In this document: one piece after another, positions 2,860 through 57,155 of the stretch | Layout of the letters: the number at the start of each line of letters is the position of its first letter | Position numbering within the stretch: position 1 is the first letter of the stretch | Program-made: the position numbers and the translations under genes | Notes under the pieces: model-generated | What the model was told of the DNA's origin: nothing | What the model saw: the letters and a program-made list of their open reading frames with translations, nothing else | Databases searched by the model: none | Assembly: GCF_004152935.1 (NCBI RefSeq) | Contig: NZ_SETE01000005.1 | Location: 62,001-126,000 of the forward strand | Source: Brumimicrobium glaciale | Lineage (GTDB): Bacteria; Bacteroidota; Bacteroidia; Flavobacteriales_D; Crocinitomicaceae | Length of the DNA: 64,000 nt | Direction: 5' to 3'

Positions 2860-2878
2860 ATTTCATACTTTTAAAATT

Positions 2879-3692: not shown

Positions 3693-3734
3693 GGCTCATA
3701 GCATAATCTTCGTCGCTAAACATTAGTAAAAACA

Positions 3735-3905: not shown

Positions 3906-3922
3906 AACACAATAAACCAAAT

Positions 3923-5106: not shown

Positions 5107-5172
5107 GAAATATTGACAACGTTAATCATATCATCCTTTGAACAGACTATTACAAAGCAAACATAAATTACC

Positions 5173-18037: not shown

Positions 18038-19909
18038 ATGGAGGCAAATAAAATGCGAAATTATATTAAAGATGTACTGGAAAATATGCCAAGTGATTGG
18101 TTGACACTCACAACACATCGTTTAGATATTTATGACGAAAAGTTAGCAAAAACTCAGTTTCTAAATGAGTTAGAAGATTTGTTTAACGACAATAATTCTG
18201 ATTTATCAGTACTAAAAAAACTGCCTACTGCTTATGATTATATTCGTTTAGGTCATCCTTTATCTTGTATTTTGGAATGGGGAATTGCGAATTTATACAA
18301 CATAAATTCAGAAAATGTAATCAGTTTCTCCTCTAAGACAGTTCCTGTTTTAGCTATTTTAAGAACAAATGCATTAAAGAATAAGAAAACTCAGATTGCT
18401 TATACTGGAGAATTACCAGCTCATTTTGATGCTGATAAAATTCGTGAAGTTTATGAATATAACTTCGATTTAAAGAAGGTAGAGAAAGCAGAAGATATTT
18501 CTGAGTATGATGGAACTACAATTTTTATTTCTCATGAAGATAAAATTGGAAATACTGATCTTTCTAAAAATGTAGATTTCTATATCAATTTACATGCTCA
18601 ATTAGGAAGTGTTTTGATTGTGAATGGTGAACAAAACGAAAGCTACATTTCGGATATTCAGCATGTAAGAAGAAGAGAAACTATTGCAATGACGCCAGAA
18701 AATTCTCACGTTGCTTTAAAATCATTTATTGAAGATTCTGCAATTGATTTTGAAGGGAATTTTGACGAAAATCTTGCTCAAAATAAATCAAGCGTTTTAA
18801 AATCATTCAATGAGATTACTGGAACAACAATAAAACCATTAGTTGCGTCAAGTGGACTGTCCATGCAATATGCAATTATGATGGGACTTATTGATGATGC
18901 ATTGGAAAATCACAAAGGAAAAGAAATTAAATTTATTGTTCCTCCAAATTGTTATGGTGGAACGAATGATCAAGCCAGACGTGTTGCGGCATGTAACGAC
19001 AACGTGGAAGTTGTAGATTTACCTGTAGATGGTGAAAATGACATGGTTCAGAGTATTGATACTGTGCTTACGAAAATCGCTAATGAAGACGCTATTCCAT
19101 ATATAATTGCTGAAATCCCAACGAATCCTAGAGTTGAGGTTCCTAATTTGGAAGCTTTGAAAGCTGCTTTAAGTAAAGAGCGCAAAACTGCAAATGGTGA
19201 AATCGCTATTGATCCAGTTTTCATTTTAGATCAAACATTTTGTCCAAACGTTCATTTCTTAGGCGAAGGAGAAATTCTATCAACCGTGAGAACAATTTCT
19301 TATGCGAGTGGATCGAAATTTCCTAGTGGTGGAAAATGTACTGCTGGTTATTGTGTTGGAAATGACATGACGCAAACTTTGATGGATAAAATTGAATTGC
19401 ATCTGGAACTTTGCGATAACGAAGCGACACATCTTCAATATGAGATTTTAGCGAAGCAATTGCCTTCAATGAATCAACGAATTATTGATGCTTATAAAAA
19501 CACACGTGAATTCGTGACATTTATACACGATGTTCTGCCAAGCGCAAAAATAAATTTTGTTTCGGAAGAATTAGCAGAGCATGAATTTACACCTTCAGTT
19601 TTCTCATTAGATCTTCCAACAAAAGGAAATAATGCAGAAGAAAAAGAAGCGTATAAAAGAGCATTGAATTTGAAGTTAATCAACATGATGATTACAGAAA
19701 TTCCTAATGAAAGTAAATTCTGTGTAAGTTATGGTCAGTTGAAAGGATGTTATTGGACAATTCCAGCAACATCAACGCAAGGAACAACCAAAGAAGGAGA
19801 TAAAGATTATATTGTTAGGGCATCGCTGTCTGGAAATATGGATTTAGAAAAACACAAAGAGGTATTTTCAGAATTTGTTAAACATTTGTTTAAGGATTTA
19901 AAAGGATAA
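18038..19909 (+). CDS. Long Cys/Met-metabolism PLP enzyme family protein
   Basis: A 623-residue fold-type I PLP enzyme of the Cys/Met metabolism group (cystathionine gamma-synthase/lyase relatives). The PLP lysine is in YASGSKFPSGGKCTAGYC, preceded by the cofactor aspartate in FILDQTFCPN. The substrate-region motif IPTNPRVEVPNLEALK is also typical. Classical members have about 390 residues. This one has an extra N-terminal domain of about 230 residues that resembles none I recognise and carries a second nucleotide-enzyme-like stretch. I cannot say whether it makes cystathionine, cleaves it or uses another thiol. An ATG at 18053, 8 bp after GGAGG, is an alternative start and would use a rare Shine-Dalgarno site; the ATG at 18038 is chosen as the longest ATG form. 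Confidence 0.85.
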   Translation: MEANKMRNYIKDVLENMPSDWLTLTTHRLDIYDEKLAKTQFLNELEDLFNDNNSDLSVLKKLPTAYDYIRLGHPLSCILEWGIANLYNINSENVISFSSKTVPVLAILRTNALKNKKTQIAYTGELPAHFDADKIREVYEYNFDLKKVEKAEDISEYDGTTIFISHEDKIGNTDLSKNVDFYINLHAQLGSVLIVNGEQNESYISDIQHVRRRETIAMTPENSHVALKSFIEDSAIDFEGNFDENLAQNKSSVLKSFNEITGTTIKPLVASSGLSMQYAIMMGLIDDALENHKGKEIKFIVPPNCYGGTNDQARRVAACNDNVEVVDLPVDGENDMVQSIDTVLTKIANEDAIPYIIAEIPTNPRVEVPNLEALKAALSKERKTANGEIAIDPVFILDQTFCPNVHFLGEGEILSTVRTISYASGSKFPSGGKCTAGYCVGNDMTQTLMDKIELHLELCDNEATHLQYEILAKQLPSMNQRIIDAYKNTREFVTFIHDVLPSAKINFVSEELAEHEFTPSVFSLDLPTKGNNAEEKEAYKRALNLKLINMMITEIPNESKFCVSYGQLKGCYWTIPATSTQGTTKEGDKDYIVRASLSGNMDLEKHKEVFSEFVKHLFKDLKG

Positions 19910-19930
19910 ACATTTTACGGAGGTACAATG

Positions 19931-20160
19931 AAGGGACGTTTTGAAAAACGTCCCTTTTATCATTAATGTATTATTTGATTCAAGGATTCAAAAGAAAAAA
20001 CATTTAACGAAGTTACAATGTAGGGACGTTTTGCAAACGTCCTTTACATTATTCAATGATTATTTGGTTAAGGATTCAAAAATTCAATGATTCAAAAAAA
20101 CAAACATTTATCAAAGCCATAATGTTCGTCCATTTTACAAATCGTCCTTTTCAGTATTAA
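19931..20160. repeat. Hairpin repeat cluster, GGACGTTT family
   Basis: Two near-perfect hairpins follow the PLP gene. The first at 19931-19956 has stem AAGGGACGTTTT with its complement and a T-run, and serves as that gene's terminator. The second at 20023-20042 has stem GGACGTTT. A decayed third copy lies near 20124-20145. Spacing is about 90 bp, and each is followed by GATTCAAAAATTCAATGATTC-like sequence. They are related to the 106-bp units at 56.7-57.1 kb. Confidence 0.75.
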
Positions 20161-20199
20161 ATTTTTATTCGAATAAAGATTCAACAAACCCTCCCATTT

Positions 20200-25578: not shown

Positions 25579-27420
25579 TTATTTTTTAATTACTCTTGTA
25601 ATTTGACTACCTGCTTTCAACATATAAACACCACTTGGTAATTTAGACATGTCGATTGTAGTATTGTTAGCATTAACTGATTTAGTTTGGATGATTTTTC
25701 CGAAAATATCAACTAACTGTACTGTCATTTCACCTTCAAATTTCTCGAATGATAAAGTAATGATATCTGAAGTTGGATTAGGGTAAGCTGTTAAATTGTT
25801 TTCCTCAATTACATTTGAATCATCAAGACCCAAAGTAACTTGCATACACTCAGAACCACGCATCACTTGACCACGAACTTCACCATTTGGATTGTCTGCA
25901 GTATGAACGTTAACATACATTTCGTTGTTTCTGAATTTCGTTTCAGCTGCTGCGTTCATTGGTGAAGCATCGTCAGCCGTAAGGTATCCGTAAGCTCCAT
26001 CATAAGAATTTGTACCTGCAAATAAACCAGATAAATCAAATTCTACTCCTCCATTCATTCCTGCTGCTGCATTGTGAATATGAGACGCTGTGATTGGTCC
26101 TGAAAGATCTTTAGCAACTAACATAACGTGTGCATTGTTTCTTTCTCTTGAAATAGTAATGATACCACCTCCACTAGCTGGAGTTGAAACACCTGGTACT
26201 TCTTGATCACCACTTAAGTTTACAGAGTAACCCTCACGAGCAACACGGTTAATTTGAGCTCTAATTTCACCATTTGGATTTGCTGCAGTATGTACATTTA
26301 AGTAGATATTACTTTCCAATAATTCGATAATTAAAGACTGTGTTAAAGCAGCTCCTGAGATTGTTCCTGAAATTCTGTTTCCAGTTACATCACCTGACAA
26401 GTCAACTACAACTGGACCATTCGCTCCTGCTGCTTCATTATGTAAATGCGCTCCCATGATTGCACCTGACAAACCTTCAACTTGTACAGAATAATCAATA
26501 GATGTAAAATCACTGTTTAAAGAAAACTGTGCAACTCCTGTAGCATTTGTTGTAACTGCTGGTACTTCTTGCATTCCTGAAAGTGCACCATCAAAAGCAA
26601 CTTGGTTATCATAATTCAATTGAGCTCTAATTTCACCATTTGGATTTGCAGCTGTATGAATATTAACATAGATATCATCTGCTTCTAAATTTGCAACAAA
26701 ACCAGGTATTGCTGAAACATCTGCAACTCCTATGATAGAATTACCCATTATAGATGGTGATAAATCAACTACTACTGCTCCGTTTGAACCTGCAGCACCT
26801 ACGTGTAAATGTGCTCCTCCAATTGTTCCACTCAATCCATCAGCTGTAATCCAATACATCAACTTTTTCTTGTCTAAAGAAAGATTGAAAACACCTAATC
26901 CACTTGCAGCTGTAACAACCAATGGCACTTCATTAAGTCCATTTAATTCTGCACGGTATGGGAAATCACTTTCCAATTTAACTTGACCTCTGATCTCACC
27001 ATTTGGATTAGCATCAGTATGTGCATTTACATAAATGTCACCTGTGATCATATCAGAAATTAAAGCAGATGTTAATGCTGCACCAGTAATTACTGTTTTC
27101 ACGTTACCGTTTACTAAAAATGGTGATAAATCAACCACTACTGCTCCGTTTGTTCCTGCTGCACCACTGTGTAAATGAATTCCATTAAGCATTGTTGGTG
27201 AACCTGCTGTATAGATAGAAATACATAAAGTATCTCTTGTTCCGTTTAAAACCATTGTTGCAACTCCTTGTCCTGTTGTTGTAACTGCTGGCACTTCTTG
27301 TTGACCGTTCATTCTAGCTGAGAAAGTAAGCTGATCACCCAAGTGTGCAGCGAAACTCATTGCTGAAGTTGAAAGTGTTAGAACTGCAGCTATTGCAATT
27401 TTTTGTAAATTTTTCATCAT
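25579..27420 (-). CDS. Four-CHRD-domain secreted protein with T9SS tail
   Basis: A 613-residue protein. The signal peptide ends near SFAA (residue 25). Four CHRD domains follow, at about 27-150, 152-270, 273-392 and 396-525. Each repeats the signature GxxEVPxVxT and GxHLHxGAAGxNG, then NPNGEIRGQ or NPNGEIRAQ. CHRD domains were named from chordin, where they occur in proteins controlling BMP signals; bacterial members have unknown function but are widely secreted. The C-terminal sorting domain starts at about 545 (LTAYPNPTSDIITLS). It lies downstream of the fasciclin gene on the same strand, with a hairpin between them. Confidence 0.9.
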   Translation of the reverse strand: MMKNLQKIAIAAVLTLSTSAMSFAAHLGDQLTFSARMNGQQEVPAVTTTGQGVATMVLNGTRDTLCISIYTAGSPTMLNGIHLHSGAAGTNGAVVVDLSPFLVNGNVKTVITGAALTSALISDMITGDIYVNAHTDANPNGEIRGQVKLESDFPYRAELNGLNEVPLVVTAASGLGVFNLSLDKKKLMYWITADGLSGTIGGAHLHVGAAGSNGAVVVDLSPSIMGNSIIGVADVSAIPGFVANLEADDIYVNIHTAANPNGEIRAQLNYDNQVAFDGALSGMQEVPAVTTNATGVAQFSLNSDFTSIDYSVQVEGLSGAIMGAHLHNEAAGANGPVVVDLSGDVTGNRISGTISGAALTQSLIIELLESNIYLNVHTAANPNGEIRAQINRVAREGYSVNLSGDQEVPGVSTPASGGGIITISRERNNAHVMLVAKDLSGPITASHIHNAAAGMNGGVEFDLSGLFAGTNSYDGAYGYLTADDASPMNAAAETKFRNNEMYVNVHTADNPNGEVRGQVMRGSECMQVTLGLDDSNVIEENNLTAYPNPTSDIITLSFEKFEGEMTVQLVDIFGKIIQTKSVNANNTTIDMSKLPSGVYMLKAGSQITRVIKK

Positions 27421-28533: not shown

Positions 28534-29724
28534 ATGATAATTGAACCAAGAACTCGCGGATTTATCTGTACAACAGCTCACCCAGAAGGATGCGAGCAAG
28601 GTGTATTAAATCAGATTGAATATATAAAATCAAAAGGGAAAATCGATAGTCCAAAAAAAGTCTTAGTAATAGGTGCCTCAACAGGATTTGGTATAGCTTC
28701 AAGAATTACGAGTGCTTTTGGCTCAGACGCTTCCACTATTGGAGTGTTTTTTGAAAAGCCGCCTTCTGAAGGAAGAACAGCTTCTTCTGGTTGGTACAAC
28801 ACAGCAGCTTTCGAAAAAGCAGCGCATAAGGCTGGTTTGTATGCAAAAAGTATTAATGGTGATGCTTTTTCCAATGAAATTAAAGAGCAAACAATTGCAT
28901 TAATCAAGAAAGACCTTGGTCAAATTGACTTGGTTGTTTATAGTCTAGCTTCACCAGTTAGAACTCATCCTGTAACGGGAGTTAAATATAAATCTTCTCT
29001 AAAACCAATTGGTGATGTCTACACAAATAAAACGGTAGACTTCCATACTGGAGAAGTTAAAGAAATTAGTATTGATCCTTCGGTAGAGGGAGATATTGAA
29101 AATACTGTCGCTGTAATGGGTGGTGAAGATTGGGAAATGTGGATTGATGCTTTGAAAAAAGAGAATTTACTTTCTGATGATTTTAAAACTGTTGCCTATT
29201 CATATATAGGACCAAAATTAACTGAACCTGTTTACAGAAACGGAACAATTGGAAGAGCAAAAGACCATTTAGAAGCAACTGCTTTTAAGATTACAGATAA
29301 ACTTAAAGACATTAGCGGAAAAGCATACATTTCTGTTAACAAAGCGCTTGTAACACAATCTAGCTCTGCGATTCCTGTTATCCCTTTGTACATGTCTTTA
29401 TTGTACCGAGTTATGAAAGACAACAATGTTCATGAAGGTTGTATTGAACAAATACAAAGATTGTACACTGAAAGATTATTCTTGGATGAAGTTCCAACGG
29501 ATAATGAAGGAAGAATACGCATCGATGATTTAGAAATGCGTGCTGACATTCAAGAAAAAGTAGCTGAACTTTGGGAAAAAGTTACTACTGAAAATTTAAT
29601 GTCCATTGGAGATTTACAAGGATATAGAAATGAATTCTTTCATCTTTTCGGATTTAATTATGATGAAATAGATTATACAAAAGAAACGGAAGAAGTAGTT
29701 GACATTGCTGGATTACAAGATTAA
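28534..29724 (+). CDS. fabV: Enoyl-ACP (trans-2-enoyl-CoA) reductase FabV
   Basis: A 396-residue protein matching the length of FabV. The N-terminal sequence MIIEPRTRGFICTTAHPEGC and the NAD-binding motif GASTGFGIASR (48-58) identify the family. The Y-x8-K catalytic motif is Tyr234 (YRNGTIGRAK) with Lys243. It reduces the enoyl double bond in the last step of each fatty-acid elongation cycle, using NADH. FabV is also known for low sensitivity to triclosan. The last 83 bp of this gene are repeated 1,192 bp downstream, and the last residues read AGLQD here against AGLQ in the second copy, so the present 3' end may have come with an inserted segment. Confidence 0.95.
   Translation: MIIEPRTRGFICTTAHPEGCEQGVLNQIEYIKSKGKIDSPKKVLVIGASTGFGIASRITSAFGSDASTIGVFFEKPPSEGRTASSGWYNTAAFEKAAHKAGLYAKSINGDAFSNEIKEQTIALIKKDLGQIDLVVYSLASPVRTHPVTGVKYKSSLKPIGDVYTNKTVDFHTGEVKEISIDPSVEGDIENTVAVMGGEDWEMWIDALKKENLLSDDFKTVAYSYIGPKLTEPVYRNGTIGRAKDHLEATAFKITDKLKDISGKAYISVNKALVTQSSSAIPVIPLYMSLLYRVMKDNNVHEGCIEQIQRLYTERLFLDEVPTDNEGRIRIDDLEMRADIQEKVAELWEKVTTENLMSIGDLQGYRNEFFHLFGFNYDEIDYTKETEEVVDIAGLQD
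29636..29718 (+). repeat. Direct repeat copy 1, 3' end of fabV
   Basis: This 83-bp sequence is the functional last part of fabV. A copy with 82 of 83 identical bases lies at 30828-30910 in the same orientation. The stop codon lies just past the repeat. Confidence 0.9.
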
Positions 29725-29841
29725 TTACGGATTATAAATTACGAATTGGGAATTTTCCACTTTAAAAGCAAGCAATTTGGTAACTTCGAAATTGAAGATA
29801 ATTTTAAAGGGATTTAATCAATTGACCAACGGTAATTTCAG

Positions 29842-29876
29842 AAAAGCACCTTTATTCATCATTTTGGTGCTTTTTT
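29842..29876 (+). terminator. Terminator after fabV
   Basis: A 9-bp stem (AAAAGCACC with GGTGCTTTT) closes a 15-nt loop and is followed by T residues. It lies about 120 bp past the fabV stop codon. Confidence 0.75.
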
Positions 29877-29975
29877 ATTTTTCATTGTGTTTTTTAAAGT
29901 TCAATCAATCAGTTTTCATATATTTATATGTTTATACCATTAAATTTATCAGAACTTAAATATAAAACCTAACTC

Positions 29976-30506
29976 TTGAATAATATTCATGCATACAAAT
30001 TTCAAGTTTTAAATAAAGATTCATTAAGCACTCAATTTATTTTTGAAAGTAAAGGTGAGAGAACTATCGTGAAAGCCATAGAATATAGCTTTATTAGAAA
30101 TATTTCAGGTAGAAAAGTTTACAATTTAGGATTTGGAGATTTCAATGAAAAAAATGGCATGCTAATAGATGACATTAATAGTAATAATGGAGACATGCGA
30201 AAAGTATTAAATACGATTCCAAAATTTTTCGCACTTAATAACGAAGCTGCAATTTGGGTACAAGGAAGCGACAGTGCAGAGGACTTTAGAGCTAAATGTG
30301 AAATTAAATGCAAAAAGAAATGTGATGAAATTTGTAAAAATCATAACAGGAGAATAAAAGCATATAAATATTATGTCGACAAAAATTTCGTTCAATTGAG
30401 TAAAGAGTACATCTTTTTTGGTTTCACAAGTGGAAAAAATCCTGACTTTGTGCAGTATATTCCCAATAGTGAATATATAGGAATTTTGGTGTATAAGAAA
30501 AAATGA
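29976..30506 (+). CDS. DUF6934-like protein
   Basis: A 176-residue protein starting at TTG. It contains the region FGDFNEKNGMLIDDINSNNG (about 48-67), then ALNNEAAIWVQGSDS, then a lysine- and cysteine-rich stretch, and an ending with IFFGFTSGKNPDFVQ and GILVYKKK. This pattern resembles the DUF6934 proteins found in Bacteroidota next to a small partner gene. The function is unknown; a role as the toxin of a small toxin-antitoxin pair is my inference from context. Cys residues cluster as KCKKKCDEIC at about 110-119. It lies in the segment between the two fabV-end repeats. Confidence 0.6.
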   Translation: MNNIHAYKFQVLNKDSLSTQFIFESKGERTIVKAIEYSFIRNISGRKVYNLGFGDFNEKNGMLIDDINSNNGDMRKVLNTIPKFFALNNEAAIWVQGSDSAEDFRAKCEIKCKKKCDEICKNHNRRIKAYKYYVDKNFVQLSKEYIFFGFTSGKNPDFVQYIPNSEYIGILVYKKK

Positions 30507-30572
30507 ATTATCTTTGTCTAGTTGAATGTTTAATGAATTTATACATTATTCAAATTTAACTTTTGAAAAAAA

Positions 30573-30743
30573 ATGGAACAAGAAAAACAAATACGTAAAT
30601 CTCAAAAAGCTATTTCAATGTCAAAAGCGACTAAAGAAAGACTAGCTAAAGTTGCCTTAGAATTAAAAGGAAAAGAGTTGTTTCCACAAAAAGTAGAACA
30701 AGCAAAGAGAACATTGAGTAAGATTAAATCACTTCCTATTTAA
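30573..30743 (+). CDS. Small basic protein, possible antitoxin partner
   Basis: An open frame of 56 codons, MEQEKQIRKSQKAISMSKAT and onward, highly charged and helical, with LAKVALELKGKELFPQ in the middle. It starts 66 bp after the DUF6934-like gene on the same strand. Its size and charge fit an antitoxin or small DNA-binding protein. No family is named. Being short, it is a likely but unproven gene. Confidence 0.55.
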   Translation: MEQEKQIRKSQKAISMSKATKERLAKVALELKGKELFPQKVEQAKRTLSKIKSLPI

Positions 30744-30827
30744 TAACGACTATTATTTCATTCTTATTAAATCTTAATCATGAAAAAAAATATAGAATGA
30801 ATTTAATTAAATATTTTCTACTATTTC

Positions 30828-30910
30828 TCTTTCATCTTTTCGGATTTAATTATGATGAAATAGATTATACAAAAGAAACGGAAGAAGTAGTTGACATTGC
30901 TGGATTGCAA
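30828..30910 (+). repeat. Direct repeat copy 2, detached 3' end of fabV
   Basis: The 83-bp copy keeps the fabV reading (HLFGFNYDEIDYT and onward) and ends AGLQ followed directly by a TAG stop. It lies just before the hairpin at 30942-30980, which looks like the original terminator of fabV. The copy has no start codon and is not a gene by itself. Confidence 0.9.
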
Positions 30911-30941
30911 TAGATAATATTGAACTAAAAATACATTAAAA

Positions 30942-30980
30942 AAAGTGCTTAAGGAAATACATTCTTTAAGCACTTTTATT
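30942..30980. terminator. Terminator beyond detached fabV end, bidirectional
   Basis: An 11-bp stem (AAAGTGCTTAA with TTAAGCACTTT) closes a 13-nt loop. It is 31 bp after the second copy of the fabV 3' end and also 38 bp past the stop codon of the minus-strand gene at 31018. Confidence 0.85.
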
Positions 30981-31017
30981 AATTTAACGGAATTAGTAAG
31001 TTATATAGACAACTTGC

Positions 31018-32511
31018 TTAGTAATCGAAATTATAATAAGAAATCATCTTGTTTTTATAAATTAGTACAGATAGTCTGCCTGCTTCATTTTTCAAAACGT
31101 TGAATGATTCAACTTTTTTAATTTTCCCCATTTCGGATTCAATTGGCTCTGATTCTGTGATTAACGCTTCTGTAGTAATATCTGCAATTCCAACCCTTAC
31201 TTTATTTCTATAACCTTCAATAATTGTATAAACCATAGCTGGATTTCCATCACTATTTTCTACCCAGAACTGATAATTACTGATATTTTTACTTTTAAAC
31301 ATACTTGCATACGTATTAACATTAGTAACCATTCCTTCAACAACAATTTTGTTCTCCTCTTTGGTTACAAATTTAATTTTATCTAAACCCAAATCCTTAT
31401 TGAATTTTAAAATTATAAAGTCACCCATCAAGAAAGCAGTATTCACTGTTATTGAACCTCCTGCTCCACCACCACCAACATTGATAGAACCGCCTAATGA
31501 TGGACGTAAACGAATAGTTTCTGTAATCAGATAAAAACCGTCATCTGTTTTAACTACATCGTTCACAATAAATTGAGGGGCATCCTTAACGTTCAATTGC
31601 TCTTCGGTCATTAAGTCTTTTGCAACTGGAATAATATCCATCTCAAAACTCACTTCTTCTTTCATTACAATATCACCATTTGGAGAAAATCCAATTCCGA
31701 AAACACCTTCTGGCTTCACTTTACCTTCTTCAGGATATGAACCAAAAATGTAAGTATTTTCATCGTCGAGCAATATTTTATTTGGGTAATAATAAAAGTT
31801 ATTTGCAAAAACTTCATCAAAAACAACTTCTCCAGAATTATCTAATCGAATCATGTTTTGACTATAATTCTCTATAGACATCCCTTTTCCAGAAGTATAA
31901 ACTACAGCAACGCCGTTTTCAGTAGAAAGAATATCGGTAACAGATATGGCCTTTCCTTTCTCAAATGTTTTGGTCCATAATTTATTCATCTCATTATCAA
32001 CCATAATGATTTCGATTGTTGATTCTGCTGACATCAATTTATGTCTGATTGTATTTGAAATAACAAATCCATTCGGCGACTTGTAAATTTTTGAATCATA
32101 TAGCTTGCCTTTCTCCAAATCTAATTTCCCAGCAATAGATCCATTTTTATCAAAACTATAAACAACATGTTTCTTCTCTTTTAGATCACCGAAAGAAATG
32201 GCCAAATGAGAATCATTACTCTCAGAGTGAATAACATCTGCTCTTTTAGAAAGTTGAATTTTATCCTTTCCTATTGTGTTGTAATCGTAATCTACGAAAT
32301 TTACTGTGTAATTTCTAAATTTTCCTTTTTCACCATCTGCCTGATAAACACTATAAAACCCGATTTTATCAACATCGCCAGCTCCCTCAAAAATTTTCAC
32401 ATCATCAATTGTTAAATCTTGAGCAAATGAAATATTAGAGAGTACTGCCATCCCAAAAAGGAATAATCCTTGCTTAATAAACGTTTTTGTTTTCATTCTG
32501 TTTGTTTTCAT
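31018..32511 (-). CDS. Secreted protein of unknown function
   Basis: A 497-residue exported protein with a signal peptide ending near SFAQ (about residue 31). The mature part is rich in repeated short strand patterns, for example VVYSFDKNGSIAGKL and DNSGEVVFDE, of the kind seen in beta-propeller proteins. A low-complexity glycine run (GGSINVGGGGAGGS) sits at about residues 340-355. No catalytic motif or sorting domain is visible. The family may be DUF6770 or related, but I am not sure. The start may be Met1 or Met6, five codons apart. It is read toward the terminator at 30942. Confidence 0.6.
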   Translation of the reverse strand: MKTNRMKTKTFIKQGLFLFGMAVLSNISFAQDLTIDDVKIFEGAGDVDKIGFYSVYQADGEKGKFRNYTVNFVDYDYNTIGKDKIQLSKRADVIHSESNDSHLAISFGDLKEKKHVVYSFDKNGSIAGKLDLEKGKLYDSKIYKSPNGFVISNTIRHKLMSAESTIEIIMVDNEMNKLWTKTFEKGKAISVTDILSTENGVAVVYTSGKGMSIENYSQNMIRLDNSGEVVFDEVFANNFYYYPNKILLDDENTYIFGSYPEEGKVKPEGVFGIGFSPNGDIVMKEEVSFEMDIIPVAKDLMTEEQLNVKDAPQFIVNDVVKTDDGFYLITETIRLRPSLGGSINVGGGGAGGSITVNTAFLMGDFIILKFNKDLGLDKIKFVTKEENKIVVEGMVTNVNTYASMFKSKNISNYQFWVENSDGNPAMVYTIIEGYRNKVRVGIADITTEALITESEPIESEMGKIKKVESFNVLKNEAGRLSVLIYKNKMISYYNFDY

Positions 32512-32804
32512 AAGTAATATTTAATGGCACAATATAATAAATTACAAGTACACACAAGACTGCTTATTGCTATTAATAATTGAATCAAAAACATCTCATT
32601 CATAATTTATTGAAAATATCAAAAACAGAATAGTATATTTGATTGAATTATATCTTCATTCCGAATAATTCTTAAAAACAATTATTCTAAACATTTGTTA
32701 TTATAGGGTAGAAATTAAAATCTGCAAGGAGAACGAAACTCATTTCAAAAAATAGGGCGGAATCAGAAAAGCCTCATGAGTAAGGAAAATTTAATTTATT
32801 AATT

Positions 32805-33720: not shown

Positions 33721-34356
33721 ATGTTCAAACGCATGAAATCATCAAAATACTTTCTATTATTAATTCTTATTTGGATCATCAATCCTACTCAAGCTCAAAT
33801 AAAGCATTATGATTTCAACATTCTAGCTTATGGTGGAATTGGATTTGGCGTGATGGAAAATGATTCGGATCCCAACTACAATATGAACAGCAATAGCGCT
33901 GATATATTATTAAAATATAGGGTCACCCAGAAATTAGGAATAGCTACAGGTATTGGTTTAAATGAATTGTCAGGTGATGGTTTTAACATAAATGGAAATT
34001 TTCATCATGAAAGAAAGTTGCTCAAAATTCCATTACTGGCTATTCTCGATTACACAATTTCTGATCATTTCAGCATTATTCCCAATCTCGGAGTATATGC
34101 CAACTACATTTTTGAAGATGAATATCGTTTTCTAAATTCCACTCATAAAAACATCTTTGAAGAATGGAATTTCGGAGCACAATTAGGTGTCGGACTTATC
34201 TTTGAATTATACACAAATTTTCATCTCGGATTTAACTACGGATTACAATATGATTTGAGCAAATTCTCATCAAGCAATAAGCAATTGATCATCAATGATA
34301 AACAAAAACTGGGCAGAATGAACTCGCTTGGGATTGTTTTGGTGATGGAGTTGTAA
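33721..34356 (+). CDS. Outer-membrane beta-barrel protein
   Basis: A 211-residue protein with a signal peptide ending at PTQAQ (about residue 26). It consists of amphipathic beta strands separated by loops, with the strands YGGIGFGVM, RVTQKLGIATGIGLN, IPLLAILDYTISDHFSIIP and a last strand LGIVLVMEL. It fits the porin-like outer-membrane beta-barrel group of Bacteroidota, like PorT. Function is unknown. The ATG at 33721 could be replaced by a second ATG four codons later. The spacer before it contains AATTACGAATT repeats. Confidence 0.7.
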   Translation: MFKRMKSSKYFLLLILIWIINPTQAQIKHYDFNILAYGGIGFGVMENDSDPNYNMNSNSADILLKYRVTQKLGIATGIGLNELSGDGFNINGNFHHERKLLKIPLLAILDYTISDHFSIIPNLGVYANYIFEDEYRFLNSTHKNIFEEWNFGAQLGVGLIFELYTNFHLGFNYGLQYDLSKFSSSNKQLIINDKQKLGRMNSLGIVLVMEL

Positions 34357-42700: not shown

Positions 42701-42845
42701 TTCATCAAAAATATATAAATCTAACATATCATATTTACCAGTTTAAAATTAATTTTGAATAACAAAACGGTCTGCAATTGAAGTCTGTACCACAAACAAC
42801 CACCCCTATCGCGTTAATAATTAAACCTTAATAATTAATCATTAT

Positions 42846-44441
42846 TTACCTAACTATCATTCTCTTAGACATTATCTCTTGTCCATTTCTTGTAAGTGAA
42901 TAAATAAACATTCCTTTCCCAACCTCAGAAGCCAAAATTGTAATTTCACCTTTGTTTTCTTCAAGTGGATAATCCTTAACAAATCCTCCGTTTAAGTTAA
43001 AAATAGTAATTGAAGCTTGATTAACCTCAGAAGCTAATTGGTAGCGAATTACGGTTCTATCATTGAATGGATTAGGTGTGTTTTGTTCCATTGAGTAATC
43101 AGATACCTCACGACTGGCTTGAACTAAGCTTTCTCTTATTTTGTCGTTGGCTTTGTATTCTGCTAATTCATCTTTAACAGATGATAATTCCTCGCGAACT
43201 GATTTTATTTCTTCAACTAATTCAGTGTTCAACTCCTGAATTCCTGCGGTTAAAACAGAGATTAAACCTGTATAGTTAATGGCTTTGTAAGAAATATCAG
43301 AAACTATCTTACCGTCTTCATCAAAAACTGGTTGAGTTACGTCTTTGGTTAATTCTGGGAAGACTTCTGCCATTTCTTGTGATATAAAACCGTGTTGGTT
43401 TATCTCTGGAAGTACAAGCCCATCTGTTTTATTGAAATTATAAGTTACCGGTCTAAGTAAAGAAATCTTTTCAAGTACATTAATCTCATTTGAAATTTCG
43501 TTCTTTAATTTGGCGTCAGATATAAGGAATGTACCCGCGGTTGTCATAATATTTCCATTAAAATATCCTGCGAAATTATTACCTGTAGTACTTGCTGCTA
43601 TACCATAAATTCCAGCATTAAAACTAGCAGTGGCATCAGTTTCACCTTTTACTCCATATGAAGCACTTGCATTACTATTTATACTTATACCATGAACACC
43701 TGTTGAAACGTCTCGACCTATAGCTTTACCATAAACACCCGTTGACATTCCTCCATCAGAACATTCACTAAATATTCCATAACCGAAATCTGAAACATGG
43801 CGTACTCTAATTTTTGCACCAAATATTTCAGGTGCAATTAAAGATCCATTAAAATTATTGATGGACAAACCTAGTTGCCCCTTTGTGAAGATACCTACTT
43901 TAGGAGAAGTAACATTATTATCTCCAAAAGGAAAAACTTCATCAACATTTTCTCCAAAATAAGTGTTCGCGCCATTTGGAGTCATAATAGCTACTAATTT
44001 AGTTGTACCTTGAGTTCCAGGATTTCCGCCACTCGGCAAAGATCCAAAACCATTTCCTACGATAAATTCTAATGGTTTAGCAGTTGTGCCGCCATTGTGA
44101 ATCCATTGAATACGAGGTTTCGCTGGACTTGCACTTGTATAGCCCGTTACCAAAGCACTTCCTTTGAATTGGAAACGAGAGCCGTAAAATGTTTGTCCGC
44201 CAGCAGGAACTTTACCTAAGGAAAACCATTCATCAGTATTACCAAATGTAAAATCACTTGTGCCACCTGACAGTTGGGTAACTGCTCCAGCTTGAAAACG
44301 GAAGATTTCATCAAGACCCAAGGAAGACCCTAACGGAGTAGGAAAAGGAACAGCAGTGATATTGTTCTGACTTAGACTATTAGATTGTCCAAAAGAAAAC
44401 GTAATAGTAAATAAACTTGCGAATAAAAGTACTTTTTTCAT
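42846..44441 (-). CDS. S74 tail-fibre-like protein with T9SS tail, copy 1
   Basis: A 531-residue secreted protein with signal peptide ending SFGQ (residue 19). The middle part (about 80-310) is beta-rich tail-fibre-like sequence. The segment LKNEISNEINVLEKI and then VTYNFNKTDG and HGFISQEMAEVFPE at about 313-360 is a Peptidase_S74 intramolecular chaperone domain, as in endosialidase tail fibres. A coiled coil follows (LNTELVEEIKSVREELSSVK), then a type A sorting domain beginning TPNPFNDRTVIRYQLA. It is likely a trimeric surface fibre secreted by T9SS. It is divergent from the giant CHU_C gene next to it. Confidence 0.85.
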   Translation of the reverse strand: MKKVLLFASLFTITFSFGQSNSLSQNNITAVPFPTPLGSSLGLDEIFRFQAGAVTQLSGGTSDFTFGNTDEWFSLGKVPAGGQTFYGSRFQFKGSALVTGYTSASPAKPRIQWIHNGGTTAKPLEFIVGNGFGSLPSGGNPGTQGTTKLVAIMTPNGANTYFGENVDEVFPFGDNNVTSPKVGIFTKGQLGLSINNFNGSLIAPEIFGAKIRVRHVSDFGYGIFSECSDGGMSTGVYGKAIGRDVSTGVHGISINSNASASYGVKGETDATASFNAGIYGIAASTTGNNFAGYFNGNIMTTAGTFLISDAKLKNEISNEINVLEKISLLRPVTYNFNKTDGLVLPEINQHGFISQEMAEVFPELTKDVTQPVFDEDGKIVSDISYKAINYTGLISVLTAGIQELNTELVEEIKSVREELSSVKDELAEYKANDKIRESLVQASREVSDYSMEQNTPNPFNDRTVIRYQLASEVNQASITIFNLNGGFVKDYPLEENKGEITILASEVGKGMFIYSLTRNGQEIMSKRMIVR

Positions 44442-44475
44442 AATGTAATGTTTTTAATTGATTGTTAAAACTCAT

Positions 44476-44487
44476 AAAAAAAAAAAA
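44476..44487. other. 12-nt poly-A tract in divergent promoter region
   Basis: A run of 12 A on the plus strand lies in the 124-bp spacer between the first S74-type gene and the CHU_C gene. It is 35-46 bp upstream of the S74 start codon. An equivalent run lies in the second locus at 51527-51537. Tracts of this kind can change length by slippage. Confidence 0.7.
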
Positions 44488-44552
44488 TGAAATAGCAAAA
44501 TTAAAAACAACTATTTTTAATTTTTCTGTATGGGAGTTCAACTAATTTTCTC

Positions 44553-44560
44553 TATTTTTG
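44553..44560 (+). promoter_or_regulatory. Putative -7 element giving a leaderless start
   Basis: TATTTTTG matches TAnnTTTG and ends only 5 bp before the ATG at 44566. Transcription would start within about two bases of the ATG, so the mRNA would be leaderless or nearly so. The same arrangement occurs at the paralogous gene. Confidence 0.5.
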
Positions 44561-44565
44561 AAGCT

Positions 44566-47500
44566 ATGAGTGTAAATAAACACATCTTTATTTGGTTAAC
44601 GCTACTTGGATTGCTGGTTCCAAACAAGCTTCTTGCACAATTTATCAACACACCAATTACTCTATACCAACAATTCAACGGAAAATACGACTATACAGTA
44701 ATTGGTAACACTCATAATACAGCGGATAATTCTACAAACTCAACATGTCAGTTTTTAACAAGTTCTTCTGCTACTCTAAACCTCAATCCAAACCAGACAA
44801 TAGAAGCAGCATATTTAATTTGGAGTGGTATAAGTGATGGCATGGCCACGTCTGTTTCTTTAAATGGAAATTTGATAACCCCTGATTATACCAATTTAAT
44901 TGCTAGTGGCACACCCCCATTCTCCTTATTTTGGTTTTCTGCTGTCAAAGACATCACTAGTTATGCTCAAAATTTTGGTAACGGAATTTACCAAATCACG
45001 AATTTTGATTTGAATCCATTTACTTCTAGTTATTGTTTTCAGACACTTGACTATTCAGGATGGAATATTATTTTAGTCTATTCTGACAACTCACTACCTA
45101 ATGTTCAAATAAATATTTATGATGGGCTTCAAATCGGTAGTTCTGTTACCTTCCCTGTTAACAACTTGAACGTAACGAATACAAATAATGCCAACATGAC
45201 TTGTCTTTCATGGAACGGCAGTTCAAACATAAATTTTACTCAATCTATTGCAATTAATGGAAATACATTGAGTAATGCGCAAAGCCCCCCAAATAATCCT
45301 TTCAATAGCACAGATAGCTTTACGGGAAGTAACATCAGTTGGAACAGGGATGTAGATTTATTTGACATCAGTGGCTTTATAAATATTGGAGATAATTCTG
45401 CAACAATAGATGTTACTTCTGGTCTTATCCGCTTCATCTCAAACATCATCACTTCTATCCCCTCAGAACTCCCAGACGCCACAATTAATATAGAAACCAT
45501 CACCGGTCAAGACCTCTGCGACAACCAAACTCTATCAATAGATTTCACAGTCCTAAACGTCAACTCCAACGACACTCTACCCCAAGGAACACCCGTTTCA
45601 ATTTTCGCAAACACCAATACATTTCTAGGAACAGTTATCACGCCCTCCGAAATTTTAATTGGAGACAGTTTAGCAATGTCAACTAACGTTACAATTCCAG
45701 CAAATGTTACCAGTCCTTTTGATTTAAGTGTTATTGCCAACCAAGACGCTACTCAATTGGGCGTAATTCAGGAGAGCAATTTAACCAATAATTCAGCAGA
45801 TACAACACTTAGTTTAACAACGGTTATCACTCCAATTTTTGATTCTATTCCGCCTGTTTGTCAAGGAACAAATTTAGTTTTTCCAACTACATCTAACAAC
45901 GGTATTTCAGGAACTTGGTCGCCTACTTTCAATTCTCAAGCAACAACAACCTATACTTTTTCGCCATCAAGTTTATTCTGTGCAGATACAGTTCAACTTA
46001 CCGTGCAAATTGTTCCAGAAATAGTTCCAACATTTACTTTACCAGATTCTATTTGTATCAATGATGCCTTGGTTTTCCCAACAGCTTCCAATAATGGAAT
46101 AGCTGGAGCTTGGTCGCCCGCTTTTGACAACCAAAACACAACAAATTATACTTTTACGCCGGATTCTTCGGGAGTTTCGGCGGGTTGTCCAGTAAGTTTT
46201 CAGCAATTAATTGAGGTTGTTCCACAAAGCATTCCTAGCTTTTCTTTTACAGATTCACTTTGCCCAAATGCTGTTTTTACTTTTCCAACAAGCTCTGACA
46301 ATGGAATAATTGGTACTTGGTCACCAGTATTTGATAATCAATTGACTACCAATTATACTTTTTCTCCTAACAGTAGTAACCTTTCAAATGGCTGCGCAGC
46401 AAGTACTTCAGAAACAATCACAATCATTGATATTGTTAATCCAACTGGAACAGCGCCAGCGAATTTAGTTTTGCAATGTTTTGCTAATGTTCCAGTTGCA
46501 GACATAAACGCAATTACTGATGAAGCAGATAATTGTACAGCAATTCCAACGGTTACTTTTGTTTCTGATGTTTCAAACGGAAATACCTGTCCAGAAATCA
46601 TCACAAGAACTTACAACATTGCAGATGATAACGGAAATGATATTGATGTAATTCAAACCATTATAATCAACGACGATACCGCGCCAACATCAAGTAATAT
46701 TTCAACAATTGTTCAGTGTTTAACAGATGTTCCTGCGGTTGATATTTCTGTAGTTTCAGATGAAGCGGATAACTGCACAGCAAATCCAACAGTTGCTTTT
46801 GTTTCAGAAAGTACAGACGGAAGCTCCTGTAAGGGAGAAATAATTACGAGAATTTACAGCGTTACTGATGATTGCGGAAACAGCATTAATGTTACACATA
46901 CAATTCTTGTAGATTCCTACACGCCAAACTTTACTGTTTCAGGACAAGGAACAACAACTTGTGATGGAAGCGATGGAACAATAACACTTTCAGGATTATC
47001 GCCAAACACAAATTATGAAATGAGTTATAATGGTGGAACGACAAATGCTATCACAACAAATGCAACAGGAGATTACTTAATAACAGGACTTGCAGCAGGT
47101 TCTTACACAAACTACACTGTTTCAGATGCAGATTGTCCAGCTTGCACATCTACAGAAAATGTTTCCATCAACATTAACGACCCAACAGCTGCAATTATTA
47201 ACGCTGGACCAGATCAGCAATATTGCGAAGGTGAAACCATCGTTTTAAATGCAATAAACCCTGAAAATGCGAACATCACTTGGAATAACGGGATAACGGA
47301 TGGCGTTGGATTTATTCAACCCGTCGGCACAACTTTTTATACCATTACCGCAGAAAGAGTAAATTGTTTTTCTTCAGATCAAATGAGTATCACGGTTTCT
47401 CCAGCAATTACAGACATTACTTGTCCGGGAGATTTAACAGCTTCATGTAACATTTCAGAACAAGCACCTTACGCGGATTTTAATGCTTTTATAGCTGCTG

Positions 47501-49662
47501 GAGGTTCTGCAACAATTCCAGTTGGTGGTATAATTGATTCAGCCTCATTTACTTTATTGAGTGAAGTTTCTGATGGAATAACTTGTCCAGAAACAATTAC
47601 AAGAACTTATCAAATAGCAGATACTTGTGGAGTGACGCTTTCATGTACGCAAAATATCGTAATTAGCGAAATAATTTTACCAACAGGGACAGCGCCGAAT
47701 GATACGCTAGTTCAATGTATCGGAGATGTTCCAATTGTAGATGTTAACTCAATCACAGATGAAACTGATAATTGTTCTGCTATTCCAATTGTGACGCACA
47801 TTAGCGATGTTTCAGATGGGAATACTTGTCCTGAAGTAATAACCAGAACTTACAACATTGAGGACAAATGTGGAAACAACATTGATGTGGTTCAAACCAT
47901 TACGATTAACGACGATATTCTACCAACAGCGAGTAATCCCGATACAATATTTGTAGATTGTTTGGTTGATGTTCCTCTAGCAGATATTACAGAAGTAACC
48001 GACGAAGCAGATAATTGTACCGTAAATCCAACGGTAGCTTTTGTTTCAGAAAGTACAGATGCAAATACTTGTAATGGCGAAGAAATCACGCGTATTTATA
48101 GCATTACTGATGATTGCGGAAACATTATTGATGTAACTCAAATCATTGTGATTGAGGTGTATAATCCAGTTTTTACGGTGTCGAGCACAAATCCAACTAC
48201 ATGTCTTGGAAACGAAGGAACAATTACACTTTCAGGATTAGCTCCTTCTGCTATTTATGAACTAAATTATAATGGTGGAGCGATAATTTCAATCACAACT
48301 AATACTGCTGGAGAATACACAATAACAGGACTTGTTGAAGGAACTTATACCGGATTTACTGTTACTGAAGGAACGTGTTTAACGTGTAGTACAACAGAAA
48401 ATGTAACAATGACTTTAACAGATCCTCTTCCACCAATAGTTGATGCTGGAGCTGACTTTGAAGAATGTGAAGCTGAAACTATAACTTTAACAGCGAGTAA
48501 TCCTGATACAGCAAATATCTCTTGGGACAATGGAGTAGTGGACGGCGTTGGTTTTATTCCACCAGTTGGAACAACAATTTATACCGTTACTGCGGAAAAG
48601 TTCAATTGTTTTTCTACAGATGATGTTCAAGTTACTATAAATCCATTACCGATTGTGAATGCAGGAAATGATTTTACAGTTTGTGACGGTGATGAAGCTA
48701 CTCTGTCTGGAAGTGGGGCAGATACTTATGTTTGGGACAATGGAGTTATCGATGGAGTTCCATTTACTCCTTCATTAGGAACAGTAACTTATACTGTAAT
48801 TGGGACATCTATTTTTGGATGTACAGCTTCAGATCAAGTTGATGTTGACGTTATAATTTCTCCAGATGTATCTTTTGTAGCGGATAGAACAATAGGTTGC
48901 GCACCGCAAGAAGTTAACTTTATTAGTACATCACCTGGTGTTTCAAATAAATGTATTTATACTATAAATGGAGGTGAACAAATTTCAGGATGTAATGTAA
49001 ATCACATTTTTACAGAAGCAGGTTGTTATGATATCAATTTACAAGTGGAATTAACAAATGGTTGTGTCGATGATTTAACAAAAACGAAATTCATCTGCAT
49101 CGATGACTATCCAGTTGCTGATTTCACAGTGAATCCAAAAGAGCTAACCAGTATTTATAATATTGCTGATTTCACAAATGAATCGACAGGAGCTACAGAT
49201 TACGACTGGAGTTTTGGAGACGAGAATTTCAGTAATGCGACAGATCCAAGTCATGAATATTCAGTTGATTCTATTGGTCAAAAGTATACTTTCGGAGTAG
49301 AACTTATAGCATACAGCAACTTAGGTTGTCCAGATACAGCAAAATTAGATCTCCCATTCTTTGAAGAATTGATCTACTATATTCCGAATGCGTTTACACC
49401 AGATGGAAATCAGTATAACGAAACATTTAAACCGATTTTCACAACAGGATTCGATCCAATGGAATACAATTTAAAAATCTTTAATCGTTGGGGAGAAGTA
49501 GTATTTGAAAGTAACGATGCAGCAATTGGATGGGACGGAACTTATGGAACGAATAGCTATAAGTTTGCGCCGTCGGGTGCTTATGTTTGGAGAATTAATT
49601 TCAAAAAAGCAAGAAATAAAGATAGAGTTGAAATCGTTGGAAGTGTTAGTTTACTACGTTAA
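44566..49662 (+). CDS. Giant T9SS type B surface protein (CHU_C), copy 1
   Basis: A 1698-residue secreted protein. The signal peptide is at residues 1-25 (ending LLAQ), chosen with the ATG at 44566 over the upstream ATG at 44530. The N-terminal 290 residues form a beta-rich domain (LYQQFNGKYDYTVIGNTHN). Then come Ig-like repeats of the type PTCP/NGNTCPEIITRTYNI with many Asp/Asn (HYR-like, possibly calcium-binding), a metal-like DGGTTN region, and a PKD domain (YDWSFGDENFSNATDPSHEY). The last 90 residues (YYIPNAFTPDGNQYNETF and IFNRWGEVVFES) are the gliding-motility-associated CHU_C domain, the type B T9SS signal. A giant adhesin or surface fibre is the likely role. Confidence 0.9.
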   Translation: MSVNKHIFIWLTLLGLLVPNKLLAQFINTPITLYQQFNGKYDYTVIGNTHNTADNSTNSTCQFLTSSSATLNLNPNQTIEAAYLIWSGISDGMATSVSLNGNLITPDYTNLIASGTPPFSLFWFSAVKDITSYAQNFGNGIYQITNFDLNPFTSSYCFQTLDYSGWNIILVYSDNSLPNVQINIYDGLQIGSSVTFPVNNLNVTNTNNANMTCLSWNGSSNINFTQSIAINGNTLSNAQSPPNNPFNSTDSFTGSNISWNRDVDLFDISGFINIGDNSATIDVTSGLIRFISNIITSIPSELPDATINIETITGQDLCDNQTLSIDFTVLNVNSNDTLPQGTPVSIFANTNTFLGTVITPSEILIGDSLAMSTNVTIPANVTSPFDLSVIANQDATQLGVIQESNLTNNSADTTLSLTTVITPIFDSIPPVCQGTNLVFPTTSNNGISGTWSPTFNSQATTTYTFSPSSLFCADTVQLTVQIVPEIVPTFTLPDSICINDALVFPTASNNGIAGAWSPAFDNQNTTNYTFTPDSSGVSAGCPVSFQQLIEVVPQSIPSFSFTDSLCPNAVFTFPTSSDNGIIGTWSPVFDNQLTTNYTFSPNSSNLSNGCAASTSETITIIDIVNPTGTAPANLVLQCFANVPVADINAITDEADNCTAIPTVTFVSDVSNGNTCPEIITRTYNIADDNGNDIDVIQTIIINDDTAPTSSNISTIVQCLTDVPAVDISVVSDEADNCTANPTVAFVSESTDGSSCKGEIITRIYSVTDDCGNSINVTHTILVDSYTPNFTVSGQGTTTCDGSDGTITLSGLSPNTNYEMSYNGGTTNAITTNATGDYLITGLAAGSYTNYTVSDADCPACTSTENVSININDPTAAIINAGPDQQYCEGETIVLNAINPENANITWNNGITDGVGFIQPVGTTFYTITAERVNCFSSDQMSITVSPAITDITCPGDLTASCNISEQAPYADFNAFIAAGGSATIPVGGIIDSASFTLLSEVSDGITCPETITRTYQIADTCGVTLSCTQNIVISEIILPTGTAPNDTLVQCIGDVPIVDVNSITDETDNCSAIPIVTHISDVSDGNTCPEVITRTYNIEDKCGNNIDVVQTITINDDILPTASNPDTIFVDCLVDVPLADITEVTDEADNCTVNPTVAFVSESTDANTCNGEEITRIYSITDDCGNIIDVTQIIVIEVYNPVFTVSSTNPTTCLGNEGTITLSGLAPSAIYELNYNGGAIISITTNTAGEYTITGLVEGTYTGFTVTEGTCLTCSTTENVTMTLTDPLPPIVDAGADFEECEAETITLTASNPDTANISWDNGVVDGVGFIPPVGTTIYTVTAEKFNCFSTDDVQVTINPLPIVNAGNDFTVCDGDEATLSGSGADTYVWDNGVIDGVPFTPSLGTVTYTVIGTSIFGCTASDQVDVDVIISPDVSFVADRTIGCAPQEVNFISTSPGVSNKCIYTINGGEQISGCNVNHIFTEAGCYDINLQVELTNGCVDDLTKTKFICIDDYPVADFTVNPKELTSIYNIADFTNESTGATDYDWSFGDENFSNATDPSHEYSVDSIGQKYTFGVELIAYSNLGCPDTAKLDLPFFEELIYYIPNAFTPDGNQYNETFKPIFTTGFDPMEYNLKIFNRWGEVVFESNDAAIGWDGTYGTNSYKFAPSGAYVWRINFKKARNKDRVEIVGSVSLLR

Positions 49663-50011
49663 ATAATGAAAAATGAAAAATATTGAATGGTGAATTTTTT
49701 AATCATTGAATTTTTCAATCCTTGAATCCTTTGAATCCTTTGAATTATTAGGTATGAGATTTGACTATTCGCTTCAGGTATCAATATCGCGTTAATCAAT
49801 GATTTGACCATTATTGAATTTTCAATTATCAAGAAAAAACCTCCAAAAGTCTAAACTCTCAGAGATTTTTAATAAAAAATCGAACGACCAACCGTTATCA
49901 GATAAAAATTAACTAAAGAGCTTTGTAGTATTCACCGCAAATAACCACCTCTATCGCGTTAATAATTAAACAACTTGTCCGACCCCTGGCGGATTAATAA
50001 TTAACCATTAT
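49663..50011. other. Spacer with duplicated repeat pieces, no gene
   Basis: No gene is seen. The segment repeats pieces of the corresponding spacer at 42659-42845: the AAAAAACCTCCAAAAGT hairpin arm, CGCAAATAACCACCTCTATC and CGCGTTAATAATTAAAC. It also contains the unusual GC-rich GTCCGACCCCTGGCGG near 49978, and GAATCCTTTGAATCC repeats near 49725-49745. Confidence 0.65.
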
Positions 50012-51493: not shown

Positions 51494-51526
51494 AATATAA
51501 TAGTTTTGATAAGTCATAAATCTACT

Positions 51527-51537
51527 AAAAAAAAAAA
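51527..51537. other. 11-nt poly-A tract in divergent promoter region
   Basis: A run of 11 to 12 A lies 34-44 bp upstream of the second S74 start codon, in the same position as the run at 44476-44487. Exact length within the run could be misread by one base. Confidence 0.65.
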
Positions 51538-51610
51538 TGACTAATCAAAATAATCTGATGTTTATTTTTGCTTTAAGTTTTCTATATTTGCGAATACTGA
51601 AAGTTTTCCT

Positions 51611-51618
51611 TATTTTTG
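51611..51618 (+). promoter_or_regulatory. Putative -7 element giving a leaderless start, copy 2
   Basis: TATTTTTG ends 5 bp before the ATG at 51624, exactly as at 44553-44560. The two promoters are therefore copies of one architecture. Confidence 0.5.
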
Positions 51619-51623
51619 AAACT

Positions 51624-57130: not shown

Positions 57131-57155
57131 TTAAAAAAATCATTGAAAATACCAT

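Follow-up and report, generated by a model that had tools for sequence, protein, structure and literature searches.

We analysed a window of 64,000 nt of the genome of the marine bacterium Brumimicrobium glaciale (contig NZ_SETE01000005.1, positions 62,001–126,000 of the forward strand; coordinates below are those of the window), in which a short module carrying a DUF6934 gene lies between two copies of the 3′ end of fabV. The fabV gene (enoyl reductase; 28534–29724, forward strand; Pfam PF12241/PF12242/PF07055) is complete, encodes 396 aa ending in ...IAGLQD, and aligns with fabV of two relatives, designated G002 and G004. Its last 83 nt before an altered stop (29636–29718, forward strand; copy 1) recur as a direct repeat at 30828–30910 (forward strand; copy 2), with a spacing of 1,192 bp and 82 of 83 positions identical, the sole mismatch being TTA/TTG. 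The number of such repeat pairs expected in 64 kb is approximately 3e-35, assuming independent bases of the window composition. This duplication had been described in a first-pass annotation made from the DNA letters alone, and the repeat search recovered it at exactly the same coordinates. The fabV end was the only long repeat found to span the module, and attC-like repeats were not found at this locus.

The right border of copy 1 is formed by a dispersed repeat of the ATTACGAATT type (29719–29754, forward strand), which has other copies in the genome and is absent from this place in G002; the altered last codons of fabV would come from this repeat. It is followed by a terminator-like hairpin (29840–29876, forward strand; stretch 29838–29885, −13.2 kcal/mol, z −4.9), which resembles, by folding and comparison, the hairpin 3′ of fabV in G002. 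Next lie the DUF6934 gene (29976–30506, forward strand; 176 aa, probable TTG start, inserted four-cysteine segment; PF22028, 77.8 bits against a cut-off of 27) and a partner gene of 56 aa (30573–30743, forward strand) with the motif LFPxKVxxAK..L...LP, which is similar to genes at other DUF6934 loci. The terminator, DUF6934-like gene and 56-codon gene proposed earlier were thus all recovered, and no recombinase is encoded inside the segment, its only products being the DUF6934 protein and the 56-aa protein, for which no Pfam match was obtained. The module ends with the truncated 5′ end of an outer-membrane-protein gene (30797–30832, forward strand), which is whole at this place in G002. At 30828–30833 (forward strand) this gene start meets copy 2 in a putative illegitimate junction with possible microhomology TCTTTC, the G002 gene having CTTTC nearby. 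The first outer-membrane-protein codons run in frame into copy 2, giving a 38-aa fusion open reading frame (ORF; 30797–30913) that reads MNLIKYFLLFLF and then HLFGFNYD...; copy 2 is followed by TAG as in G002 and G004. Neither this fusion nor the dispersed repeat next to copy 1 had been noticed in the first-pass annotation. Beyond it lie a second terminator-like hairpin (30935–30983, forward strand; stretch 30925–30995, −20.7 kcal/mol, z −7.8), resembling the hairpin 3′ of fabV in G004 by folding and comparison, a DUF6770 gene (31018–32511, reverse strand; PF20559), which adjoins fabV in G004, and a complete outer-membrane-protein-like gene (33721–34356, forward strand; PF13568 match below the cut-off), whose G002 orthologue comes after the 56-aa gene.

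Comparison with ten Brumimicrobium genomes, including that of B. glaciale, revealed fabV in three of them (B. glaciale, G002 and G004). The gene order in G002 is fabV, DUF6934 (broken by small indels), the 56-aa gene and the outer-membrane-protein gene, and that in G004 is a single fabV match, a terminator and DUF6770 on the opposite strand; G004 thus represents the uninterrupted state and G002 the module without the repeat. While fabV itself could be aligned to both, positions 29843–30833 of the window (DUF6934, the 56-aa gene and the outer-membrane-protein start) could be aligned to G002 only (83%), and positions 30830–32544 (fabV end, terminator and DUF6770) aligned to G004 without a break (80%). 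The switch from G002-like to G004-like DNA coincides with the left edge of copy 2. On its 3′ side the repeat extends to the end of fabV; from there, copy 1 gives way to the dispersed repeat and copy 2 runs on into G004-like DNA. Positions 29719–29842, which begin with the dispersed repeat, had no match in G002. At the single mismatch between the copies, copy 1 carries the G002 base and copy 2 the G004 base (one site only). The locus is therefore a chimera of G002-like and G004-like segments. Because the hairpin region at 30942–30980 lies in the G004-aligned stretch, where a similar hairpin trails the single fabV end, it resembles the old fabV terminator, as the first-pass annotation had supposed; the empty site with one fabV 3′ end that it anticipated in relatives is likewise present in G004, in which the DNA after copy 2 follows unbroken.

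The two copies differ from each other at 1/83 positions, whereas copy 1 differs from G002 at 16/83 and from G004 at 11/83, and copy 2 at 17/83 and 10/83, respectively. Since the distance to the relatives is 10–17/83, the junction formed long after the three species diverged, and the duplication event, as judged from these differences, is recent. Five neighbouring genes showed 64–85% identity to the relatives; the block identities of 83% (G002) and 80% (G004) fall within this range, and therefore both orders, fabV–DUF6934 and fabV–DUF6770, may be old in the genus. We also surveyed 84 fabV neighbourhoods (the best 80 of the listing plus four), 72 of which had at least 2 kb of downstream DNA. By DNA identity, a second fabV end was found in B. 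glaciale only, the next best match (52.5%) being at chance level. An old simple duplication, which according to the first-pass annotation would show as the same arrangement with diverged copies in all relatives, is not what these 84 neighbourhoods display.

The DUF6934 gene most likely starts at the TTG at 29976, because this codon and the subsequent ones are conserved in G002 and at two further loci (L048 and L049); for the more distant member L215, an M codon was taken as the start. The inserted four-cysteine segment defines a subfamily (B. glaciale, L048 and L215) and is absent from the other 21 aligned members. Small genes resembling the 56-aa gene trail other DUF6934 genes: a short ORF begins near the DUF6934 end in 86 of 93 located modules, a few of these being chance ORFs or DUF6934 pieces, and the common motif of the 56-aa protein (from an alignment of 12) lies nearby in 45 of 91 distinct modules. 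In G002, L049 and G623, DUF6934 is broken and the small gene is open. The pair had no match in PADLOC-DB and none at cut-off in NCBIfam, and a search of open-licence papers found none that names DUF6934. Structure prediction from the single DUF6934 sequence gave no usable model, with a mean predicted local distance difference test score (pLDDT) of 32.6, and a profile search of solved structures gave one match at chance level (E 0.31). No DUF6934 relatives were found in phage records or in viral contigs (two single-protein queries), and a plasmid search returned two distant matches (26%). The compact pairing, the company of a HigB-like gene and a helix-turn-helix (HTH) gene at one locus (L166), and one attC-like cassette context (L029) suggest that the DUF6934 pair may be toxin–antitoxin-like. 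In the latter context (L029/L196; G269 contig 12), the pair lies, by inspection, between two attC-like repeats with complementary cassette ends GTTATCTGAC and GTCAGATAAC, and is possibly an integron cassette.

Within the order, 299 genomes were searched for DUF6934; a match was found in 52 and exceeded the cut-off in 36. For the class, the corresponding figures are 396 genomes, 77 and 46, and the two sets overlap. We examined 100 loci, a subset of all matches made up of search-returned loci and 40 chosen stretches, with flanks of about 1.5 kb for 60 loci and up to about 3.5 kb for 40; they correspond to 97 distinct places (L194/L031, L195/L052 and L196/L029 are duplicates). The criterion for gene-3′-end duplication selected nine rows, every one spanning the module; all nine were kept, and as L194 and L195 repeat L031 and L052, seven are distinct, including fabV (83 bp, 99%). 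Apart from B. glaciale, 6 of 96 DUF6934 places thus have a module with an intact gene on one side and a duplicate of that gene's 3′ end on the other, all six in other Bacteroidota. The targets, with families assigned from Pfam, are aspartate carbamoyltransferase (G187; 255 bp, 94%), a SAM-dependent methyltransferase (G235; 82 bp, 95%, convergent), der/EngA (G560; 75 bp, 99%, convergent, with HigB-like PF05973 and an HTH gene also in the cargo), methylmalonyl-CoA mutase (G522; 72 bp, 93%), Hsp70/dnaK (G591; 61 bp, 92%) and the ribonucleotide reductase large chain (G623; 84 bp, 81%); we take the genes concerned to be pyrB, der, dnaK and nrdA where such names are used. The der and mutase targets are cut by the contig or locus end. 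In these six cases the copies are 81–99% identical and their right limits lie at the stop codon or within about 13 nt of it. Over all seven cases, the repeats measure 58–255 bp, the spacing is 784–1833 bp, and the orientation to the target varies. At the dnaK locus a small ORF, apparently truncated by eye, runs into the gene-end copy. This recurrence of the scar at seven genes is the new part of the present analysis; we found no account of DUF6934 or toxin–antitoxin modules flanked by gene-end duplications in the open-licence literature, which is weak evidence of absence. Other flanking repeats (e.g. L043, L044, L160, L161, L164, L168, L177, L215 and L220) were intergenic or unclassified and were not counted. 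We likewise did not count L172 (G533, 1350–2304), where two copies (108 bp, 93%) of the start of the downstream gene enclose a DUF6934 pair.

As a background, the same criterion was applied to 1.09 Mb (fabV neighbourhoods, three other regions and the window), corresponding to 237 length-equivalents. It returned five rows, namely, the B. glaciale locus and four rows at three loci, the latter being rejected by eye as tandem paralogues (L068) or dispersed or palindromic repeats (L104 and two L115 rows). After this inspection, and with the B. glaciale locus excluded, the scar was found at 6/96 DUF6934 places against 0/237 in the background (p 5e-4, a crude value); with nothing dropped, the comparison was 6/96 against 3/237 (p 0.019, likewise crude). 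These results indicate that the scar is commoner than in ordinary sequence. In a second control with HigB (PF05973), 1 of 70 loci had a clear spanning gene-end duplication (L286, 95 bp, 92%); six rows at four loci had been flagged, of which L275, L278 and three L321 rows were dropped by eye as short ORFs in repeats. At L286 (G346), the gene whose 95-bp end is duplicated around a HigB–HTH pair has at least 1080 codons, and further small gene pairs, toxin–antitoxin-like by eye, come next. A protein-level scan of 65 HigB loci (approximate positions) detected no 3′-end remnant and also missed L286; applied to 93 DUF6934 modules and L195, it also returned rows at L173 and L177 that were weak or unclassified.

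The pyrB case allowed a comparison of filled and empty sites. The gene is present in 58 of 61 genomes of the G187 genus, and a second match was found in G187 only. Among the 29 loci examined of the 57 relatives with pyrB, the site was empty in 25, the flank of copy 2 (65–72% identity) lying within about 180 bp behind the single pyrB end; G706 carries 92 bp of module-like DNA behind pyrB up to the contig end, and the remaining three gave no verdict. At two sites, copy 2 of pyrB has a base found in none of the 29 relatives. At the methyltransferase of G235 (L195, reverse strand 1229–5384), the gene end occurs with two stacked remnants and a DUF6934-type pair, and a short ORF that we presume to be VapC-like lies nearby. 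The second, decayed gene end lies about 1.9 kb further out, and therefore insertions can stack.

Taken together, these data make insertion–duplication probable: one side of a piece of foreign DNA recombined through the conserved gene end, and the opposite side underwent illegitimate joining. The donor of the incoming DNA would have been a relative whose genes ran fabV–DUF6934–56-aa gene–outer-membrane-protein gene, and in the recipient cell fabV would have had its own terminator and DUF6770 behind it. A crossover in the shared fabV end would link the resident fabV to the incoming downstream DNA. The other end of the fragment, broken about 10–12 codons into the outer-membrane-protein gene, would be attached to the fabV end of the recipient with no true homology between the two. 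This could happen directly, by homology-facilitated illegitimate recombination (HFIR), or via a circle and one crossover. The cell would thereby gain DNA, with an 83-bp fabV remnant left behind the module, and the same process may have placed DUF6934 modules behind other conserved genes. The order of events would be as given here, RecA presumably being needed and natural transformation being the putative route, and the module may have been retained because it is a toxin–antitoxin-like or otherwise selected pair. Homology at one end of the added DNA was found, G002 having fabV and the downstream module in the same order, and so was an illegitimate junction at the other end (outer-membrane-protein start to fabV end; small ORF to gene end at dnaK). 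That the repeat stops where the coding region does would reflect sequence conservation between donor and recipient in coding DNA but not in the DNA behind it; the in-frame fusion of copy 2 to a truncated gene start makes the right junction look illegitimate and unlike an attachment site.

Several observations weigh against this scheme. The possible microhomology at the junction is 5–6 nt; TCTTTC would fit, and the donor gene is known from G002 only, with CTTTC. The donor and recipient states are known from other species (G002 and G004) and not from this one. The last 99 bp of fabV lean to G004 (7:10 informative sites, against 56:24 in the four preceding windows of the gene); these windows were picked afterwards (p 0.047), and a G004 lean of copy 1 is not predicted by the simple model. 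At 3′ of DUF6770, the locus ceases to be G004-like and carries two DoxX-like genes with no match in G002 or G004, and then the G002-like outer-membrane-protein gene at 33721, which has different upstream DNA; the region right of DUF6770 needs a further event or an unseen allele. For pyrB, the relatives are split at the 16 differing sites, and it could not be told which copy was resident and which incoming. Specificity of the scar for DUF6934 was not shown, since 6/96 against 1/70 for HigB gives p 0.24, and against the undropped 4/70 gives p 1.0. In the excerpts of PMC3240628 used here, classical HFIR usually deletes recipient DNA, and here DNA was gained; true HFIR is given there as very rare in Escherichia coli, about 3.5e-10.

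A tandem duplication from the fabV end to the outer-membrane-protein start, with later replacement of the inside of the second unit by a G004-like allele, would yield exactly the observed junction between these two ends, and tandem duplications are common. We nevertheless regard this course of events as improbable, because it calls for a second replacement in which one side offers no more than 83 bp of homology, the complete gene at 33721 is preceded by different DNA, and it leaves pyrB, with 25 of 29 relatives lacking the module, unexplained.

A site-specific mobile cassette that uses the gene end as its attachment site, with a recombinase encoded elsewhere, is in our judgement distinctly unlikely. 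It would account for the position of the repeat at a conserved gene's 3′ end with the whole gene kept, for the recurrence at seven genes and for the empty sites at pyrB. However, the seven repeat pairs, of 58–255 bp and from unrelated genes, share no core by eye; cargo ends are truncated (B. glaciale; dnaK, by eye), the spacing varies from 784 to 1833 bp and so does the orientation to the target; and no recombinase family was found among the two inner genes and twelve neighbours, a scan made at the B. glaciale locus only and not for the neighbours in the other six cases. Truncated cargo, variable repeat length and unrelated targets thus disfavour attachment sites. Of the integration into a gene 3′ end put forward by the first-pass annotation, what held is the addition of a segment behind a whole gene with displacement of the old end, as seen from the G004 state, the six other genes and the empty pyrB sites; the attachment site did not hold, given the truncated neighbour gene, the dnaK ORF running into the copy and the range of repeat lengths. 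Its alternative, recombination through homology, came closer. As for the dispersed ATTACGAATT repeat, it was also considered as a recombination seed and rejected, its 3-mismatch count (49+67) being near that of the reversed control (36+65); the repeat has 19 exact genomic matches, and the control covers the 3-mismatch count only.

It is very unlikely that the arrangement is old, an ancestor having carried both segments, with G002 and G004 each losing one through the repeats and gene conversion homogenizing the copies: the locus does carry the gene sets of both relatives, and recombination between the repeats would produce the G004 order, but the copies differ at 1/83 positions although the species are 10–17/83 apart, and the second fabV end occurs in none of the 83 other neighbourhoods by DNA identity. 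An assembly artefact joining two strains is scarcely credible, for although 83-bp repeats can mislead short-read assembly, a join on 5–6 bp would be required, the contig is 429,735 bp long in a 12-contig genome of 99.98% completeness and 0.45% contamination, and there are six analogous cases in other genomes.

Beyond insertion–duplication at single loci, DUF6934 modules, and perhaps other tiny pairs, could conceivably be recombinase-free mobile units that travel with the end of the adjoining conserved gene as a portable homology arm, a proposal that we hold to be doubtful. If true, a unit between two gene-end copies would leave as a small circle and enter the gene of relatives by ordinary homologous recombination, and repeated rounds would stack remnants at favoured genes. 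The spread of tiny gene pairs without a mobility gene is poorly explained so far. A displaced gene end beside a whole conserved gene is a countable scar, which shows arrival, helps dating and can be searched across genomes; a gene-end duplication alone is no proof of an integrase.

Other features of the window include approximately 13 head-to-tail units of 174 bp (8067–10454), mostly 88–96% like the reference copy and 71% for the last; dispersed and tandem hairpin repeats of the GGACGATTTGTAAATCGTCC type (19905–20180 and 56746–57137, with a spacing of about 106 bp in the second); a protein with four CHRD stretches and a Por secretion tail (25579–27420); and two neighbouring copies of a long repetitive gene region (42828–56208), about 7.1 kb apart, roughly 70–94% alike in pieces and with inner repeats of about 1,242 bp.

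Among known systems, integrative elements of tyrosine recombinases at gene 3′ ends restore the whole gene and displace the old end; unlike these, the fabV locus has no recombinase inside, no constant core was seen, and its cargo is truncated. Integron gene cassettes have a counterpart in the one DUF6934 module that lies between attC-like repeats (L029, by inspection), whereas the B. glaciale module is flanked by gene ends. The closest experimental parallel concerns E. coli receiving DNA homologous at one end, as far as the excerpts of the report go (Amarir-Bouhram et al. 2011, PMC3240628): a lacZ-duplication product was obtained in 56 of 60 clones, the 14 sequenced clones had duplications of 109–950 bp, and these were explained by a single crossover of a circular molecule missing part of the lacZ end. 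Both there and here, added foreign DNA is flanked by a duplicated gene end (58–255 bp in the present cases); the former involved a plasmid under selection, and the latter are natural insertions with a recurring two-gene cargo. HFIR in natural transformation (Prudhomme 2002; de Vries and Wackernagel 2002), as excerpted via PMC3240628 and PMC9711863, similarly has one homologous end, the other end being mostly at 3–10 bp of microhomology, with about 1 kb added. A similar length of recipient DNA is generally deleted in that process, in contrast to the duplication seen here, where copy 2 and its G004-like flank were kept, which fits a duplication variant. The orphan immunity arrays of the Vibrio cholerae type VI secretion system, according to the parts of Kirchberger et al. 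(2017, PMC5361080) drawn on here, share one-site additions, displaced 3′ ends and successive insertions; there, the displaced effector is lost and the additions belong to a secretion cluster, whereas whole conserved genes and varied targets are involved here. In the portions cited, those stacked immunity genes and their displaced 3′ ends are attributed to a proposed HFIR-like process (PMC5361080), as are related exchanges of effectors (PMC9711863; PMC11751169).

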